Shown piece after piece: positions 21,721 to 59,566 of a stretch of 59,566 nt of DNA. The position numbers and the translations under genes are program-made. The notes beneath the pieces are model-generated. The model did no database searches. It had not been told where the DNA came from and worked only from the letters and a program-made list of their open reading frames with translations. Every line of letters begins with the position of its first letter. Position 1 is the first letter of the stretch. The stretch is from Microcaldota archaeon. Its GTDB lineage: Archaea; Micrarchaeota; Micrarchaeia; Micrarchaeales; CABMGC01. Where the stretch lies: contig JAKAWC010000001.1 of the NCBI GenBank assembly GCA_021817125.1, positions 76,327 through 135,892 of the forward strand, given 5' to 3'.

Positions 21721-22206
21721 TCAGGCGTGCCTTCCGGCACCGTCGCAGAACTTGAATACAAGCCCTGCCCTCTTGCGGTCAGGCGTTCTGCCCAGCGCAC
21801 CTACTACTGCCATCATCTTTTCCGGTGTCGGCATGGCGCCAATGGCCACCAAGAAGTAGTACGAATATACGTACATCAAGTGACTCTTGATCCCCTTTCT
21901 GAGCAGCAACGTGATAAGCTTGTCGTCAGGAGTTATCCCGACTGCCCTGAGCACCTTTTCCATCCTAGGTCTCGTTATCTCTTTTCCGGCGAAACTCAGG
22001 AATCCTGCAACATAAAGATAGTCCATGATGCCATCCTTCACGTGCGCCTTTATCTCTTTGTCGCCGGCAAGCCTATCCAGTGTTGCAATCATGTAATCTG
22101 AAGAAGATACGGATATGGCCTTCGTGATAGCCTTAATAGCCGCGAGCGTAACGTCATCCTCCCATTCCGCCCCCACAACAGATAACTTTTCCGTAACTGC
22201 TGCCAT
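21721..22206 (-). CDS. Tandem ribosomal L12/P1-like N-terminal domain protein
   Basis: Residues 1-58 are an unassigned helical region. Residues 61-109 (MDYLYVAGFLSFAGKEITR, then EKVLRAVGITPDD) read like the N-terminal dimerisation domain of archaeal ribosomal stalk protein L12/P1, which normally begins MEYVYAALLL...GKEIT and continues VL.AAG. Residues 111-155 (MYVYSYYFLVAIGAMPTPEK, then VVGALGRTPD) repeat the same pattern. The flexible hinge and acidic C-terminal tail that recruit GTPases are absent. It is not the ordinary stalk protein. The assignment rests on pattern reading by eye and could be wrong; a helical protein of another family is the alternative. Confidence 0.5.
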   Translation of the reverse strand: MAAVTEKLSVVGAEWEDDVTLAAIKAITKAISVSSSDYMIATLDRLAGDKEIKAHVKDGIMDYLYVAGFLSFAGKEITRPRMEKVLRAVGITPDDKLITLLLRKGIKSHLMYVYSYYFLVAIGAMPTPEKMMAVVGALGRTPDRKRAGLVFKFCDGAGRHA

Positions 22207-39831: not shown

Positions 39832-40482
39832 ATGTCTGGAACTGAAGGAATGGTTGGAACAGGTGCAGTTGTGATGAAGGTAGCGCCGGCAGAGGGTCTG
39901 AGATCAAGTGCAACTATGGCGCACGAGAATACCATAGTGCTCAATCTTACCGACTATAAGGGCGATGGTGCCAGTATGGCGCGCGCAAAGGAAGTGCGGG
40001 AGGTACTCAACCCCGGTTTTAATGCCATCGAACACAGGTTCTCCGGTCGCGAAGGGGAAGCAATCTTGGCCAAGGCAGCCGACGTATCCAAGGTGCTTGG
40101 GACAAGGATTAGCGCTGAAGACATGTCAGACGTGTTGCTTGCGGTATCCAAACTGCCTGAGGGAAGGTTAAGCGGAAGATACAACATGGCGCGAGACATA
40201 GCGCCTGCAGTGCTCGACGCGGTGCGTGACTTCGCGTCGACAGTGTCCTGGTCTGGCGGTCCAGAGCAGGTTGTACCAGAAGCCGTGATAAGGCAGAAGA
40301 TGCATTATGCTGCCCCGGGATGTGCGTCCATCATAGACAACATCCCTACCAACCAGTTGCAGTGGACGCCGCCAGAGACGATTAAGGCCATGGTGGCAGG
40401 CGCGGCACTCGCCATGTACGGAGCTTCGCAGAAAGCTACAACCGCAGACGCTTCGGCTGGCCTAAAAGCAGCGGTTAGGTGA
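39832..40482 (+). CDS. Hypothetical protein, 216 aa
   Basis: Not recognised. An Ala/Gly/Met-rich soluble protein, likely helical, with no membrane segment; there are hydrophobic helices near the C-terminus (TIKAMVAGAALAMYG). ATG 39832 is preceded by GGTGATAAG and by a TATA-like CCATATAATG (39798-39807). It lies 130 bases after the 23S terminator and converges on the minus-strand cluster. Confidence 0.65.
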   Translation: MSGTEGMVGTGAVVMKVAPAEGLRSSATMAHENTIVLNLTDYKGDGASMARAKEVREVLNPGFNAIEHRFSGREGEAILAKAADVSKVLGTRISAEDMSDVLLAVSKLPEGRLSGRYNMARDIAPAVLDAVRDFASTVSWSGGPEQVVPEAVIRQKMHYAAPGCASIIDNIPTNQLQWTPPETIKAMVAGAALAMYGASQKATTADASAGLKAAVR

Positions 40483-40508
40483 TTTTATCTCTTTTTAGGG
40501 GGTTAGCT

Positions 40509-41081
40509 TTAGTTTCGCTGCAGGTCCCTTATCACGTCGGAGAACGGGGTCGCATCAAAGTAGAACTGCTCATCAAGCCTGATTGCTCCTGGGAGCTTCG
40601 GCCTTCCCCCTATCAAGTAGTCCTCCAACGTGCGCTTTTGCCTGTCCATTATCTCCTGCCTTGACTCCTCTTCCATTCCTATCATGATCATGCCGTCTCC
40701 TGCTCCAACTCCCATGTTGTGCACGCGCTTCATCCCTCTATACGTCTTCGCATCAACGAGCGGGCCGGAGCCCCACTGCCCTATCTTGTCGAATATCCAG
40801 ACGTCCGCCATTATGTCAGCGCCATCCTTCCAGAGAATGATAATATGGTACCTGCCGCTGCGCAGCTCTTCATTTGACTGATAGAGGTCGCACAGATGGT
40901 CACCCACACTTCCCTTCTTTGTCCTGTCCAGCACCCCCTCAAGGCCCTTGGCAGGATATACTATCGCATGTTTGCCCTGCACCAACAGGTGCATTGGCAT
41001 ATAGAACCCGCGCTGCTGCTCGGTCTGTGCTTGCGTTGGCTGGGCAATAAGAGGGGCACTCGAGCTTGGTGCTGCCTGCAC
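40509..41081 (-). CDS. Hypothetical protein, 190 aa
   Basis: Not recognised. A Gln/Ser/Ala-rich N-terminus (about 25 residues) is followed by a globular alpha/beta domain (MHLLVQGKHAIVYPAKGLEG, YHIIILWKDGADIMADVWIF, GAGDGMIMIGMEEES). It begins three bases after the winged-helix-like gene's stop, so the two are co-transcribed from the promoter near 41390. Confidence 0.65.
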   Translation of the reverse strand: MQAAPSSSAPLIAQPTQAQTEQQRGFYMPMHLLVQGKHAIVYPAKGLEGVLDRTKKGSVGDHLCDLYQSNEELRSGRYHIIILWKDGADIMADVWIFDKIGQWGSGPLVDAKTYRGMKRVHNMGVGAGDGMIMIGMEEESRQEIMDRQKRTLEDYLIGGRPKLPGAIRLDEQFYFDATPFSDVIRDLQRN

Positions 41082-41084
41082 TTT

Positions 41085-41357
41085 CTACGCCCTTCTCGCT
41101 GCAGACGCAGCTGCTCCCAGCGCCTTCTCTCCTTTCGGAGTGCGCATGGCAGAGCACCAATCTCCCCTGAGTATGACATTAACGAGCCCTCGTCTCTCGA
41201 GAGTCCTCAAATAGTCTATGACACCTTCGCTTCCCTGCACGCGAAAGTAGTGTGTCCTACCGCTTGGCGGCAGCGCTGCCAGCGCCCTTATCTGGTGTTC
41301 TGTAAGCTCTCCTTCCGGCTCCGGATTCCTCCTTCGCAGTCTGTCAATTAGCTCCAT
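41085..41357 (-). CDS. Small winged-helix-like DNA-binding protein, 90 aa
   Basis: The order of elements resembles a winged helix: LTEHQIRALAALPPSGRTHY, then GSEGVIDYLRTLERRGLVNV, which has the helix-turn-recognition helix rhythm, then a two-strand wing (VILRGDWCSAMRTPKGEKAL) ending in a PKG-like turn as in MarR or PadR families. ATG 41357 is preferred; a TTG lies three codons earlier. A palindrome at its own promoter suggests autoregulation. It is first in an operon with the 190-aa protein. Confidence 0.6.
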   Translation of the reverse strand: MELIDRLRRRNPEPEGELTEHQIRALAALPPSGRTHYFRVQGSEGVIDYLRTLERRGLVNVILRGDWCSAMRTPKGEKALGAAASAARRA

Positions 41358-41367
41358 ATAAACCAAT

Positions 41368-41397
41368 CTAACGTTAGTTACACGCCCTATTTAATTG
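41368..41397 (-). promoter_or_regulatory. Promoter with palindromic operator candidate
   Basis: On the minus strand a TATA element ATTAAATAGG (41388-41397) is followed 10 bases later by the perfect palindrome CTAACGTTAG (41368-41377), which covers the expected transcription start and lies 10 bases before the ATG of the winged-helix-like gene. A repressor bound there would block initiation. Confidence 0.5.
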
Positions 41398-41516
41398 TTT
41401 GTTACCGCTTCGGTCTGCTCGCATCGTCTCCCGTGGCTGTACAAACTCTTCAGATATATCATTTGTTTTCCCCTATTTAAAGCTGATTTGGTATTTGTTT
41501 ATCACAGGGAAGACGC

Positions 41517-41870
41517 TCACTTCCGCATTCTTCTTCCAAGGGTCTCGGTGTGGCCGTTGCCGTCGTGATGCCCATCTCTCCGTTCCGAGAAGAGTACATC
41601 TCCCTCGTCAGTCACCCTGTGCCTGAACCCAGGGTGCTTGGCATCAAGCTCCTCCGCCCGTGTTGCCCTCTCCAGGTTAGACCATTTCCTGAACTGGAAC
41701 ACGGCTTTGGTCCTGGTGACCACGTATCTAATATCCGAGAATCCGGTCTCGTTCCTCCTCGCCCTGAGCGCCGCTTCTACGAGCGCCTGCTCGCTCATCG
41801 TTAGTACAGTTTTATCAAGAACGAGGCGCAGGTCCGGGCGTTCTTGCAGAGCTTTAGCTGGGAAATACAT
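41517..41870 (-). CDS. Hypothetical protein, 117 aa, possibly winged-helix-like
   Basis: Not recognised. The middle (MSEQALVEAALRARRNETGF, then VFQFRKWSNLERATRAEELD) is helical with a repeat of charged residues, and the end KHPGFRHRVTDEGDVLFSER resembles a wing. The C-terminal 20 residues are basic and His-rich. ATG 41870 lies about 30 bases from a minus-strand TATA element (ATATATAC, 41900-41907). The stretch from 41398 to 41516 holds no further gene. Confidence 0.55.
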   Translation of the reverse strand: MYFPAKALQERPDLRLVLDKTVLTMSEQALVEAALRARRNETGFSDIRYVVTRTKAVFQFRKWSNLERATRAEELDAKHPGFRHRVTDEGDVLFSERRDGHHDGNGHTETLGRRMRK

Positions 41871-41924
41871 GTTAACCCAGGATTCATTAAGGCTCCCGAA
41901 CGTATATATTGCTTTGTGTCGCTG

Positions 41925-43472
41925 TCAGGCAGAGCTCTTCAAATCGGTGCCGCGCCTTGCAGACTTAGCCCGCTCAATCCTGGCGAGCTCAGCTCCCTTG
42001 GCCGTGAGCCTGTAGTGCGTCACCTTCTCCTTGCTTTGCGCATCGAGCACAACGACCTCCTCAATCAGGTTGTGTGAGAGCATAAGCTGTGCGTATGCCA
42101 TCAGCGAATGACCTCCACTCAGGTCGGCAAGCTCGCCTGCGGGAAGTGCAGCCTCGAGGCCATATATACCGAACGCCACCAGAGCTGGCCTTACCTTCTC
42201 TACGATATCTGGCTCATCCGCTGGCTCGAGCGCGTCGAACAGGCTGTGCATATCGGTGGCTATCGCATCCATCTGCTCCTCCCTGCCGTAGACGTTGGAG
42301 GTAAGCGTAGCCACGGAATCGCGCGCCTTCGCCTCCTCACCAACCATAAACGGTTCAAAGTACTCCCTGGCAAGCTCTCTGGCATCCTCGCCCTCAGGAG
42401 TGCCAGCTCTGGCTCTACGCTGCGCCTCCTCCCAAGCTTCGTTCTTTCTCCGTGCGCGATCGTTCTCCCTACCTGACCGTATCCGAGTGTATTCATCCAC
42501 GATGGCTCTCGATATGTTTGCGTCCACAAGGCCGTCGCTCATTGCGACCCTCAGGACGACGACAGTCTGCCCTTGACTCCCACCGGGCAGGATTCTAATC
42601 ACCCTGCCCTCCTCTGGCTTCTTCAGCATGGTGTCTATGGACGCATGCATGGCATCTGTGCCTGTCTTGGCTATGCCCTTCATGGCATTCTGGCCGCTCC
42701 TGAACAATCCTCGTATGGCCGCCTCTACGTCCCCCTCGTGCTTCAGGTACTCGAGAAGTGCGACCTGCCTGCCGAGCCTTATTATATCTGCGCCCTTGTA
42801 CTCCGGTGCTATCAGGCTAAGCACCTTGAAGTGGAATTCGCCAGTCTGTATCTCAGCGAATGTGGCGTGCAGCATCCTGGCAAGCTCCCTGTCGGTGTCC
42901 TTGTACCAGAACAGCTCCCTAGCAAAGCCGTGGGTGTCGCCATAGCTGCCCATCGTGGCGTCCCGCCTGAATGCTATGGCGGTGAGCCTCGCAAGCGCAT
43001 GCGTTGCTATAATGCTCTCAGGTAGACCTTCTCTCTCCTTGCCCTTCTTTATCGCCTCAGGCATGCCACTCTCCCCAAGCATCTTGTGCAGGTAATACGT
43101 GGCCGTGGCCATTGCGATGTTGACGCGAAGCTTCTCAGGGTCCTGCTTGAGCAGTTCCCTATTAACTTCGATCGAGTTGTTGTCAAGATTTATATTGACC
43201 TCGTCTGTGACCGAGATGCTGCCACTAGGTTGCATCAGCTGGATGAGCACAGGCTCCTCCCATTTGCCAAGCGGCTGCTGGTGCTCTTGGGTGCTCAGTA
43301 TCCGATCGAGGAAACTCCTCACTTTCGAGACCATCTTCTGGTAAGTCTCCATCTCCCTCTCAAACGTGCGTTCATCTGTCTGCTTGCCCTCTATCACAGA
43401 CCGCCTGCCCTCCTTGAATGGGGCGCCGCCTTCTCCACCGTGTGCGCTATGCCTGCTGACATTCGATTCCAT
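41925..43472 (-). CDS. Large hypothetical protein, 515 aa, with C-terminal winged-helix-like region
   Basis: Not recognised. The N-terminal 40 residues are charged and disordered; residues 40-390 are mostly helical with a possible alpha/beta section (GRVIRILPGGSQGQTVVVLR). Residues about 430-505 (MAYAQLMLSHNLIEEVVVLD, then KVTHYRLTAKGAELARIERA) have the helix-wing-helix order of MarR/PadR-type winged helices. There are no catalytic signatures or membrane segments. ATG 43472 lies about 26 bases from a minus-strand TATA (CTTTAATAATC, 43493-43503). It is the largest unknown gene in the window. Confidence 0.68.
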   Translation of the reverse strand: MESNVSRHSAHGGEGGAPFKEGRRSVIEGKQTDERTFEREMETYQKMVSKVRSFLDRILSTQEHQQPLGKWEEPVLIQLMQPSGSISVTDEVNINLDNNSIEVNRELLKQDPEKLRVNIAMATATYYLHKMLGESGMPEAIKKGKEREGLPESIIATHALARLTAIAFRRDATMGSYGDTHGFARELFWYKDTDRELARMLHATFAEIQTGEFHFKVLSLIAPEYKGADIIRLGRQVALLEYLKHEGDVEAAIRGLFRSGQNAMKGIAKTGTDAMHASIDTMLKKPEEGRVIRILPGGSQGQTVVVLRVAMSDGLVDANISRAIVDEYTRIRSGRENDRARRKNEAWEEAQRRARAGTPEGEDARELAREYFEPFMVGEEAKARDSVATLTSNVYGREEQMDAIATDMHSLFDALEPADEPDIVEKVRPALVAFGIYGLEAALPAGELADLSGGHSLMAYAQLMLSHNLIEEVVVLDAQSKEKVTHYRLTAKGAELARIERAKSARRGTDLKSSA

Positions 43473-43557
43473 CAGAGATGATGTGCCGACGGTGATTATT
43501 AAAGATTCCTGCGGATTCGTCTATTTACGATGTTTTGCCGAAATGCAGGATAAAGAA

Positions 43558-44307
43558 TCAGAACGCTTCGACAAGTTCCGGCTTGACCCCCTGCATGAAA
43601 GGCTGCTCTGCAATCGCTGGTCTAAGCATGTCACCCATCTCCTTCGCCTCTACAGGGTCGCGCGCTATCAGCACGACCTTTGACGGCGCTACGCCAAGGA
43701 CCTCGACGGCAAGTTCCACCTGGGCCACAATCTCGGCAGGGCGGAATAGCTGGGTCACGTAAGCATCAGTTATCCCTATGCTCGCCGCCTTGAATGCTGG
43801 GGCATAGTTGAGTCTCGAGGGCATAAGTACGACCTCGTGATGTGCGTGCGGGGTCCCTCCAGCGGCCTTTATCATGGCATCCTCATCGATGAATCTCGGT
43901 TCGACCGTTATCCCGAGCTCCTCTCCCAGTTTCTTTGCAGCTCTCTTATTGGCGATTTTACCCTCCTCGTTGAGCTGCTCCGGGCTAGGCTCTTTTGACA
44001 TATCAACGTGATTCTGGAGATAAGAGACTACCGCAGTGAGCTTGTTGACGCTTACAGAGGTCCCGTTTCTAACCTGCTCATCGCCCCACTTCACAGCCTT
44101 GCAGCCCCCGTGTGCATCGGTATAAAGGTGCACCATCCCCTGCTGTCTGGCGTCCTCGTAAGAGCCAGCCCCCCCGATTCCCGCTGCCTTTCTGAACCTG
44201 GTGACCAACTCATCCCTGAGCTCCTGATCATAATAAGGTGTGTTCCTGGGGTCTACGCATCCCGCAACGCCTTCCTTTGCCTTGAGTCTTGCTGCCATAA
44301 TGGCCAT
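43558..44307 (-). CDS. Divergent beta-carbonic-anhydrase-like protein
   Basis: The beta-CA zinc signature can be aligned: C17-V-D19-P-R21 corresponds to C-x-D-x-R, and H66-G-G-C69 to H-x2-C. Between them, RKAAGIGG takes the place of the RNAGG loop. About 180 further residues with alpha/beta character follow, longer than a minimal beta-CA. The neighbour upstream (44376-45071) has the same layout with better conserved motifs, so this looks like a diverged tandem copy. Activity could be carbonic anhydrase or another zinc hydration chemistry; specificity is not certain. ATG 44307 lies near a TATA-like ATAATATTATC (44324-44334). Confidence 0.6.
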   Translation of the reverse strand: MAIMAARLKAKEGVAGCVDPRNTPYYDQELRDELVTRFRKAAGIGGAGSYEDARQQGMVHLYTDAHGGCKAVKWGDEQVRNGTSVSVNKLTAVVSYLQNHVDMSKEPSPEQLNEEGKIANKRAAKKLGEELGITVEPRFIDEDAMIKAAGGTPHAHHEVVLMPSRLNYAPAFKAASIGITDAYVTQLFRPAEIVAQVELAVEVLGVAPSKVVLIARDPVEAKEMGDMLRPAIAEQPFMQGVKPELVEAF

Positions 44308-58601: not shown

Positions 58602-59537
58602 TTATACTGGCCCTGTATACTGGCTTGACCAAGCACTCGAATAAACTACATTGGTAGCTGCGCCGTTGTTGAGGTCTCCCGAGTAGTCGTTTGCGTTGCC
58701 GTTGAGCGGCCACCATCCTACGAGGTTCTGCGGTCTGACCGGGGCTCCACCTATGCCTTCCGTATATAATGCCTGGACTTCACCTGCAGACAAAGAGGCA
58801 TTGTATAATTGTATATTTGAAAGACCGCCAGTGAAGTACCCCCCGTCAATGCCTGCGCCACCAATAGTTGCGATTGCACCGCTATTGACCAGACTCAGCG
58901 ATGGCACTGATGTTTCGGGTGTGTTGGTTCCATCTACATAAATTAAGGCGTTGCCAGTTGCAGCGTAAGTGAGTGCGAAGAAATGCCAATGCCCATCATC
59001 TATGACTAAGCTTGAGCGATAGTCTGTACATACTATGGAAAATCCGACACTATTCGTACTAAGATAGTCGCCAACTATAAACCCGTTTGTGCAGCCTCCG
59101 CCCCCGCCAAGATCCTGAAAGAACGTGCCTATCCCAGTCTGTGGCGTAGATGTTTCGAACCATCCGCTCACTGTGAATGGCGGATTATTACTTGTAAAGA
59201 AAGTCGAAGCAGGAACTGTAGCAGAAATCGACGAGCCAGCAAAGGTGCCTACATACTCCGGCAGCTGTCCGTTGCAGAGTCCCTGTAGGGATATATCCTC
59301 AATGGTTCCTGGGCCATACGGTCTTATCACCTGGCATGCTCCGGGTTGCGCTCTTGGTGCGAAGTTGTTTGTATTGAACACGCCTAGCTGGAAGAGCGCA
59401 CCCAGAACGACAGCGATGATTAGTATCGCCCAGCCGTAGGTCATCAGACTTAAATGTTCGATTCCTGTGTAAAGCATTAGCGCCGCAACAAGTAAGAGAT
59501 GTTGCGGCGTAATGATGTTCGGTGTTAAAATGAACAT
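58602..59537 (-). CDS. LamG-domain surface protein with pilin-like N-terminal helix
   Basis: The segment EHLSLMTYGWAILIIAVVLG near residues 28-48 is like the EYLMTYGWAILII helix found in archaeal type-IV-pilin-like surface proteins. After it come a Cys-containing linker and a concanavalin/LamG beta-sandwich (about residues 85-300: FTVSGWFETSTPQTGIGTFF, DDGHWHFFALTYAATGNALI, ending VGWWPLNGNANDYSG). It probably sits in or on the cell envelope and binds carbohydrate. ATG 59537 is preferred over 59552 because TATA CTTATATTTT (59554-59563) is only two bases from the latter. The upstream region is outside the window. Confidence 0.82.
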   Translation of the reverse strand: MFILTPNIITPQHLLLVAALMLYTGIEHLSLMTYGWAILIIAVVLGALFQLGVFNTNNFAPRAQPGACQVIRPYGPGTIEDISLQGLCNGQLPEYVGTFAGSSISATVPASTFFTSNNPPFTVSGWFETSTPQTGIGTFFQDLGGGGGCTNGFIVGDYLSTNSVGFSIVCTDYRSSLVIDDGHWHFFALTYAATGNALIYVDGTNTPETSVPSLSLVNSGAIATIGGAGIDGGYFTGGLSNIQLYNASLSAGEVQALYTEGIGGAPVRPQNLVGWWPLNGNANDYSGDLNNGAATNVVYSSAWSSQYTGPV

Positions 59538-59566
59538 AGTAGGAATTGACATGGGAAAATATAAGA

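Follow-up and report, generated by a model that had tools for sequence, protein, structure and literature searches.

The gene considered here lies in a window of 59,566 nucleotides (the whole stretch of DNA that was analysed) on contig C8 of a draft genome of 893 kb, which is ~85% complete and comes from an order of tiny acid-loving archaea. It is read on the minus strand from an ATG start at 22206, whereas the plus strand of the same segment carries in-frame stops in the frame shown. The gene is flanked on one side by a divergent dienelactone hydrolase gene (PF01738), and its downstream neighbour, on the same strand, encodes a product that has a hydrophobic segment in its N-terminal part and is not matched by any Pfam model. 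Further away in the window, the gene at 58602-59552 (minus strand) encodes a product with a pilin-like N-terminus (HLSLMTYGWAILIIAVVLGALFQLGVFN), and similar N-termini are found in several loci that carry relatives of the studied gene. A run of proteins is also present at 39832-44307, and no Pfam match was obtained for the four that were tested (39832-40482 on the plus strand; 40509-41081, 41925-43472 and 43558-44307 on the minus strand). The features of the gene are collected in Table 1.

Table 1. Features of the gene and of its product, with positions in the window, strand and supporting evidence.
Feature	Position	Strand	Evidence
Gene of the tail-less protein with a double L12 N-terminal domain, 161 aa (P0001)	21721..22206	-	ORF call and translation
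Long helix at the N-terminus, residues 9-47, unlike L12	22066..22182	-	AlphaFold model; hhalign to L12 5%
Unit 1, L12/P1 helices 1-3, residues 61-104	21895..22026	-	TIGR03685; 3a1y_A profile and fold; hhalign
Gly68 (L12 position 8), small residue of unit 1	22003..22005	-	Counts in relatives
Unit 2, L12/P1 helices 1-3, residues 110-155	21742..21879	-	hhalign to L12 and to unit 1; family profile to eukaryotic P2
Tyr117 (L12 position 8), aromatic residue of unit 2	21856..21858	-	Counts in relatives

The N-terminal domain of L12/P1 is the anchor part of the ribosomal stalk, and the earlier note had read the protein as two repeats of this domain. Both units were found to be homologous to it (hhalign 98%), but only helices 1-3 are represented in each, over ~44 residues. 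Residues 61-100 match the curated archaeal P1 model TIGR03685 with an E value of 1.5e-6, under its equivalog cut-off, and the whole protein scores below the curated cut-offs of both TIGR03685 (28.5 vs 100 bits) and PF00428 (16.5 vs 28.1 bits). Unit 2 alone gave no match to TIGR03685 or Pfam, and since each half of the protein alone gave no L12 match in Pfam, relatives were needed to recognise L12. The profile match that had been expected for both halves was thus obtained directly for unit 1, whereas unit 2 was recognised only via its relatives, four of whose isolated second units match TIGR03685 (E 2.4e-5 to 2.9e-3). With a 22-member family profile, residues 62-104 match P. horikoshii P1 (3a1y, E 1.2e-8) and residues 113-155 match a eukaryotic P2 (4v6i, E 1.3e-3). 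A profile of 20 close relatives gave 3a1y_A for unit 1 (E 1.1e-7) and eukaryotic P2 for unit 2 (E 3.8e-4), and the eukaryotic P2 matches of the family profile overall span residues ~113-156 with E values of 3.8e-4 to 1.4e-3.

The two units align with each other in hhalign at 97.4% (E 1e-11). Against an L12 profile built from 13 Micrarchaeota L12 proteins and the P. horikoshii one, unit 1 reached 98.3% (E 1e-14) and unit 2 reached 98.1% (E 1e-13), and the maximum for 60 column-shuffled versions of unit 2 was 3.6%. The analysis has shown that the helix 1-3 core of L12 was duplicated and fused into one chain. Judged by the defining features of L12/P1, the protein does not qualify as L12, being instead assembled from L12 parts. 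A third L12 unit at residues 19-59, indicated by a weak PF00428 match, was rejected on hhalign values of 0.2-5% to either unit or to L12.

The AlphaFold2 model, obtained with 20 sequences as input, has a pLDDT of 87 and contains helices at residues 9-47, 50-53, 60-72, 79-88, 95-103, 110-121, 128-137 and 144-160. The predicted architecture is a long N-terminal helix followed by two three-helix units; the double domain had been described earlier, but the first 60 residues with their long helix had not. The model of a relative (L042, pLDDT 88) shows the same order of helices, with the N-terminal helix at 15-47. Foldseek superposed 42 residues on chain A of 3a1y (P. horikoshii P1) at 0.6 A, with probabilities of 0.96 and 1.00 and 36-40% identity over the superposed segment, and human P1/P2 was found at 0.75. 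No PDB chain matches the whole protein (Foldseek, no E below 0.38). Phycobiliproteins and calmodulin, which appeared with Foldseek E<1, were rejected at probabilities of <=0.3 and rmsd above 11 A. The N-terminal 45 residues likewise gave no match to the L12 profile.

Unit 1 of the model fits P1, but neither unit has a helix 4. This helix (GVNIKDVIK in L12) is missing from both units in both models, and unit 1 is followed directly by the first helix of unit 2. The hinge and the C-terminal LFG factor-binding motif are missing as well; the chain stops at residue 161 right after unit 2, and the proposed absence of a GTPase-recruiting tail holds. The P1/P2 dimer interface is formed by helices 1, 2 and 4 (PMC3794596, PMC4379515), hence without helix 4 the units are incomplete dimerisation domains. 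It is possible that the long N-terminal helix stands in for helix 4 in dimerisation.

A further difference between the units is seen at L12 position 8, which is Leu in L12. In unit 1 it is Gly or Ala in all 20 close relatives and Gly in all 11 KaiC-linked members, and in unit 2 it is Tyr in 20/20 close relatives and mixed in the KaiC-linked members. Among units of the double-length proteins, 36 of 58 carry Gly and 49 of 58 carry Tyr or Phe. This Gly/aromatic asymmetry, seen through most of the family, suggests an obligate pseudo-dimer, the small and large pair being suggestive of what a symmetric dimer contact could become after fusion.

The genome also carries a separate normal L12 gene, as the earlier note had proposed to check; its product ends in GGLASLFG and it lies directly downstream of uL10 on contig C18, whereas the window gene is not adjacent to uL10. 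The uL10 of this genome (297 aa) keeps its spine-helix sequence, with the spine region at about residues 200-275, and, like that of the relatives, it does not end in the motif seen in L12. In the order, uL10 (L001 1775-2668, minus strand; relatives L103-L122) mostly has ~280-330 aa between stops and the C-terminal LFG motif is absent, so that L12 would be the only stalk protein left to recruit factors.

Relatives of the window protein were detected in 67 of 301 genomes searched in the phylum, which belong without exception to two families within a single Micrarchaeota order. The gene is accessory and its occurrence is patchy, many related genomes of the same genera having none. When 84,980 species genomes were scanned with a motif of the close branch, only Micrarchaeota were returned (all Candidatus Micrarchaeota, one labelled Micrarchaeaceae); a genome scan with the window sequence alone found no relatives, but an alignment-based scan recovered them. 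In full-length alignment, relatives share 28-41% identity with the window protein. Searches of viral contigs found no family member, anti-phage defence models gave no match, and no account of the family turned up in the literature searched. As far as these searches go, the family is undescribed and confined to one order of Micrarchaeota.

Three branches were distinguished, and the tree of units gives a rough grouping only, having poor support and placing a genuine L12 fragment within the close branch. Group I, the window branch, consists of proteins of ~160 aa that are usually encoded in single copy (40 genomes by score); its conserved neighbours are shared only within single genera, with no general partner gene. 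It is more L12-like than the KaiC-linked branch and is the most L12-like branch of the family. Group II is more divergent and is encoded with KaiC-like ATPases; one of the KaiC-linked members lies at L083 2368-2847. Group III comprises double-length proteins of about 310-430 aa that contain four L12-like units. Their genes are amplified, some of them in tandem, and five genomes have 15-23 unit matches apiece. The amplified genes, for proteins of 300-430 aa, lie at L063-L071 (G012, G022, G027, G032, G036), where several contigs are short. One truncated family copy of 84 residues (L053, 8034-8288, plus strand) is probably decaying. The dN/dS values are 0.26-0.28 for two related pairs of the window branch and 0.07-0.09 for group II; the family is under purifying selection (dN/dS 0.07-0.28).

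A KaiC-like (PF06745) gene was found within 3 kb of 22 of the 104 family loci, against ~2.5 expected, an expectation that is derived from gene density and ignores the relatedness of the genomes. In 15 genomes from 12 genera the two genes lie on the same strand less than 160 bp apart (27-154 bases between matches), and the KaiC-type identity of the neighbouring ATPases was confirmed by curated models. Two of these 15 genomes have an identical protein, hence 11 independent genera are to be counted. G023 and G196 (L084 and L085), which are assigned to different genera, share the very same family protein and KaiC pair, which would reflect recent transfer or cross-binning. The KaiC-linked loci mostly adjoin a tandem KaiC-KaiC pair. 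In the order, two genes for single-domain KaiC-like ATPases recur side by side in tandem as a module (L079, L080, L083, L090, L091, L092, L123, L124), and such pairs are also seen away from any family gene (in G043 and G048, among others). Archaeal KaiC-like ATPases have been proposed as signal-transduction hubs (Makarova et al. 2017, as cited in PMC5847659), and the literature searched yielded no paper describing an L12-like partner for them.

The window gene has no KaiC-like ATPase beside it, and in none of the 40 group I genomes is the family gene near a KaiC-like gene. The window genome has a single KaiC-like gene, on contig C22. In five group I genomes, two of them >90% complete, no KaiC-like gene was detected, so the window branch can apparently do without it. 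Given these five genomes and the lack of adjacency in group I, the KaiC link may be irrelevant to the window protein.

Sequence and predicted fold show that the helix 1-3 core of L12 was duplicated and fused, with loss of helix 4, hinge and GTPase-recruiting tail and with addition of the long N-terminal helix. On the proposed mechanism, the two units probably pack together like the paired chains of L12, with Gly68 facing Tyr117. By analogy with the L12 dimer, which holds the spine helix of uL10, the protein could act as a docking or adaptor module that clamps a helix of its partner. In the KaiC-linked branch this partner would most likely be the co-encoded KaiC-like ATPases, as the operons suggest, and the window branch would be a standalone branch of the family. 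We give an even chance to an off-ribosome docking or adaptor role for such a single-chain, L12-derived pseudo-dimer that is no longer a stalk protein. The fuller account, in which a duplicated and fused stalk domain lost its GTPase-recruiting tail, was recruited as a KaiC-type ATPase subunit in Micrarchaeota and was then amplified to four units, with the window gene in a standalone branch, is put forward more tentatively, at somewhat less than even confidence.

Other explanations have been weighed against the off-ribosome role. As a tail-less, ready-made dimer, the protein could instead sit on the spine helix of uL10 and block or delay the loading of L12, as a dormancy, stalk-tuning or assembly-placeholder factor. 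A capping of uL10 had been suggested in the earlier note. This is considered rather unlikely, yet it retains some probability because the L12 likeness of group I, the highest in the family, would suit a stalk role. Both units are true homologues of L12, the tail is absent, and the genome encodes L12 and uL10 separately and keeps the spine-helix sequence of uL10. To our knowledge, no partner of the L12 N-terminal domain has been established apart from itself and uL10. Placeholder roles are known for paralogues of ribosomal proteins, such as Mrt4 for P0/uL10 (PMC5425277). The capping of uL10 has to be set against the loss from both units of helix 4, which is part of the P1/P2 dimer interface, against the patchy presence of a family most of whose loci have no link to translation genes, and against sister branches that are placed in KaiC operons or amplified into tandem double-length genes. 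Off-ribosome docking is favoured, and is more likely than capping of uL10, because helix 4 is missing, occurrence is patchy, and the family has KaiC operons and amplified members.

It is still less probable that all members are regulatory subunits of KaiC-like ATPases and that the window protein acts in trans on the ATPase of contig C22. The unit architecture is common to the branches, the sister branch has the operon linkage and the window genome has one KaiC-like gene, but the 40 window-branch genomes show no adjacency, and the five of them with no detected KaiC-like gene, two being >90% complete, also argue against it. We regard as very improbable that the L12 likeness is a convergence of short helical hairpins, uninformative on origin or partner. 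The units are indeed all-helical and short, with single-protein scores under the curated cut-offs; however, both match profiles independently while shuffled controls stay at <=3.6%, and the identity to P1 and the close superposition on it also speak for homology.

In comparison with archaeal L12/P1 (aP1; TIGR03685, PDB 3a1y), both units share the sequence and predicted fold of helices 1-3 and keep the Y-x-Y-A motif, and unit 1 also has the G-K/R-E-I loop. Unlike archaeal L12/P1, the units are fused, carry an extra long N-terminal helix and lack helix 4, hinge and C-terminal LFG; the gene is not beside uL10, its family was detected in only 67/301 genomes, where an L12 gene would be expected in essentially every one, and other relatives are placed in KaiC operons. 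An asymmetric pair of L12-type domains is also found in the eukaryotic P1/P2 heterodimer (PF00428, PDB 2lbf), whose P2 gives the best score for unit 2, whereas the window protein is one chain with neither helix 4 nor tails. Mrt4 is similarly a stalk-protein paralogue with no functional tail, but it is a paralogue of uL10 and acts in the assembly of yeast and human ribosomes (PMC5425277). Archaeal KaiC-like ATPases (PF06745) are co-encoded with the sister branch and not beside the window gene.

Hence, a part of the ribosome has apparently been put to new use as a docking module. Should the window protein bind uL10 instead, nature would have provided a stalk blocker. If the off-ribosome reading is true, a doubled, tail-less L12/P1 N-terminal domain on other machinery would show a core ribosomal fold turned into a general docking module, and the paired KaiC-like ATPases of these minimal archaea would gain a first candidate partner.
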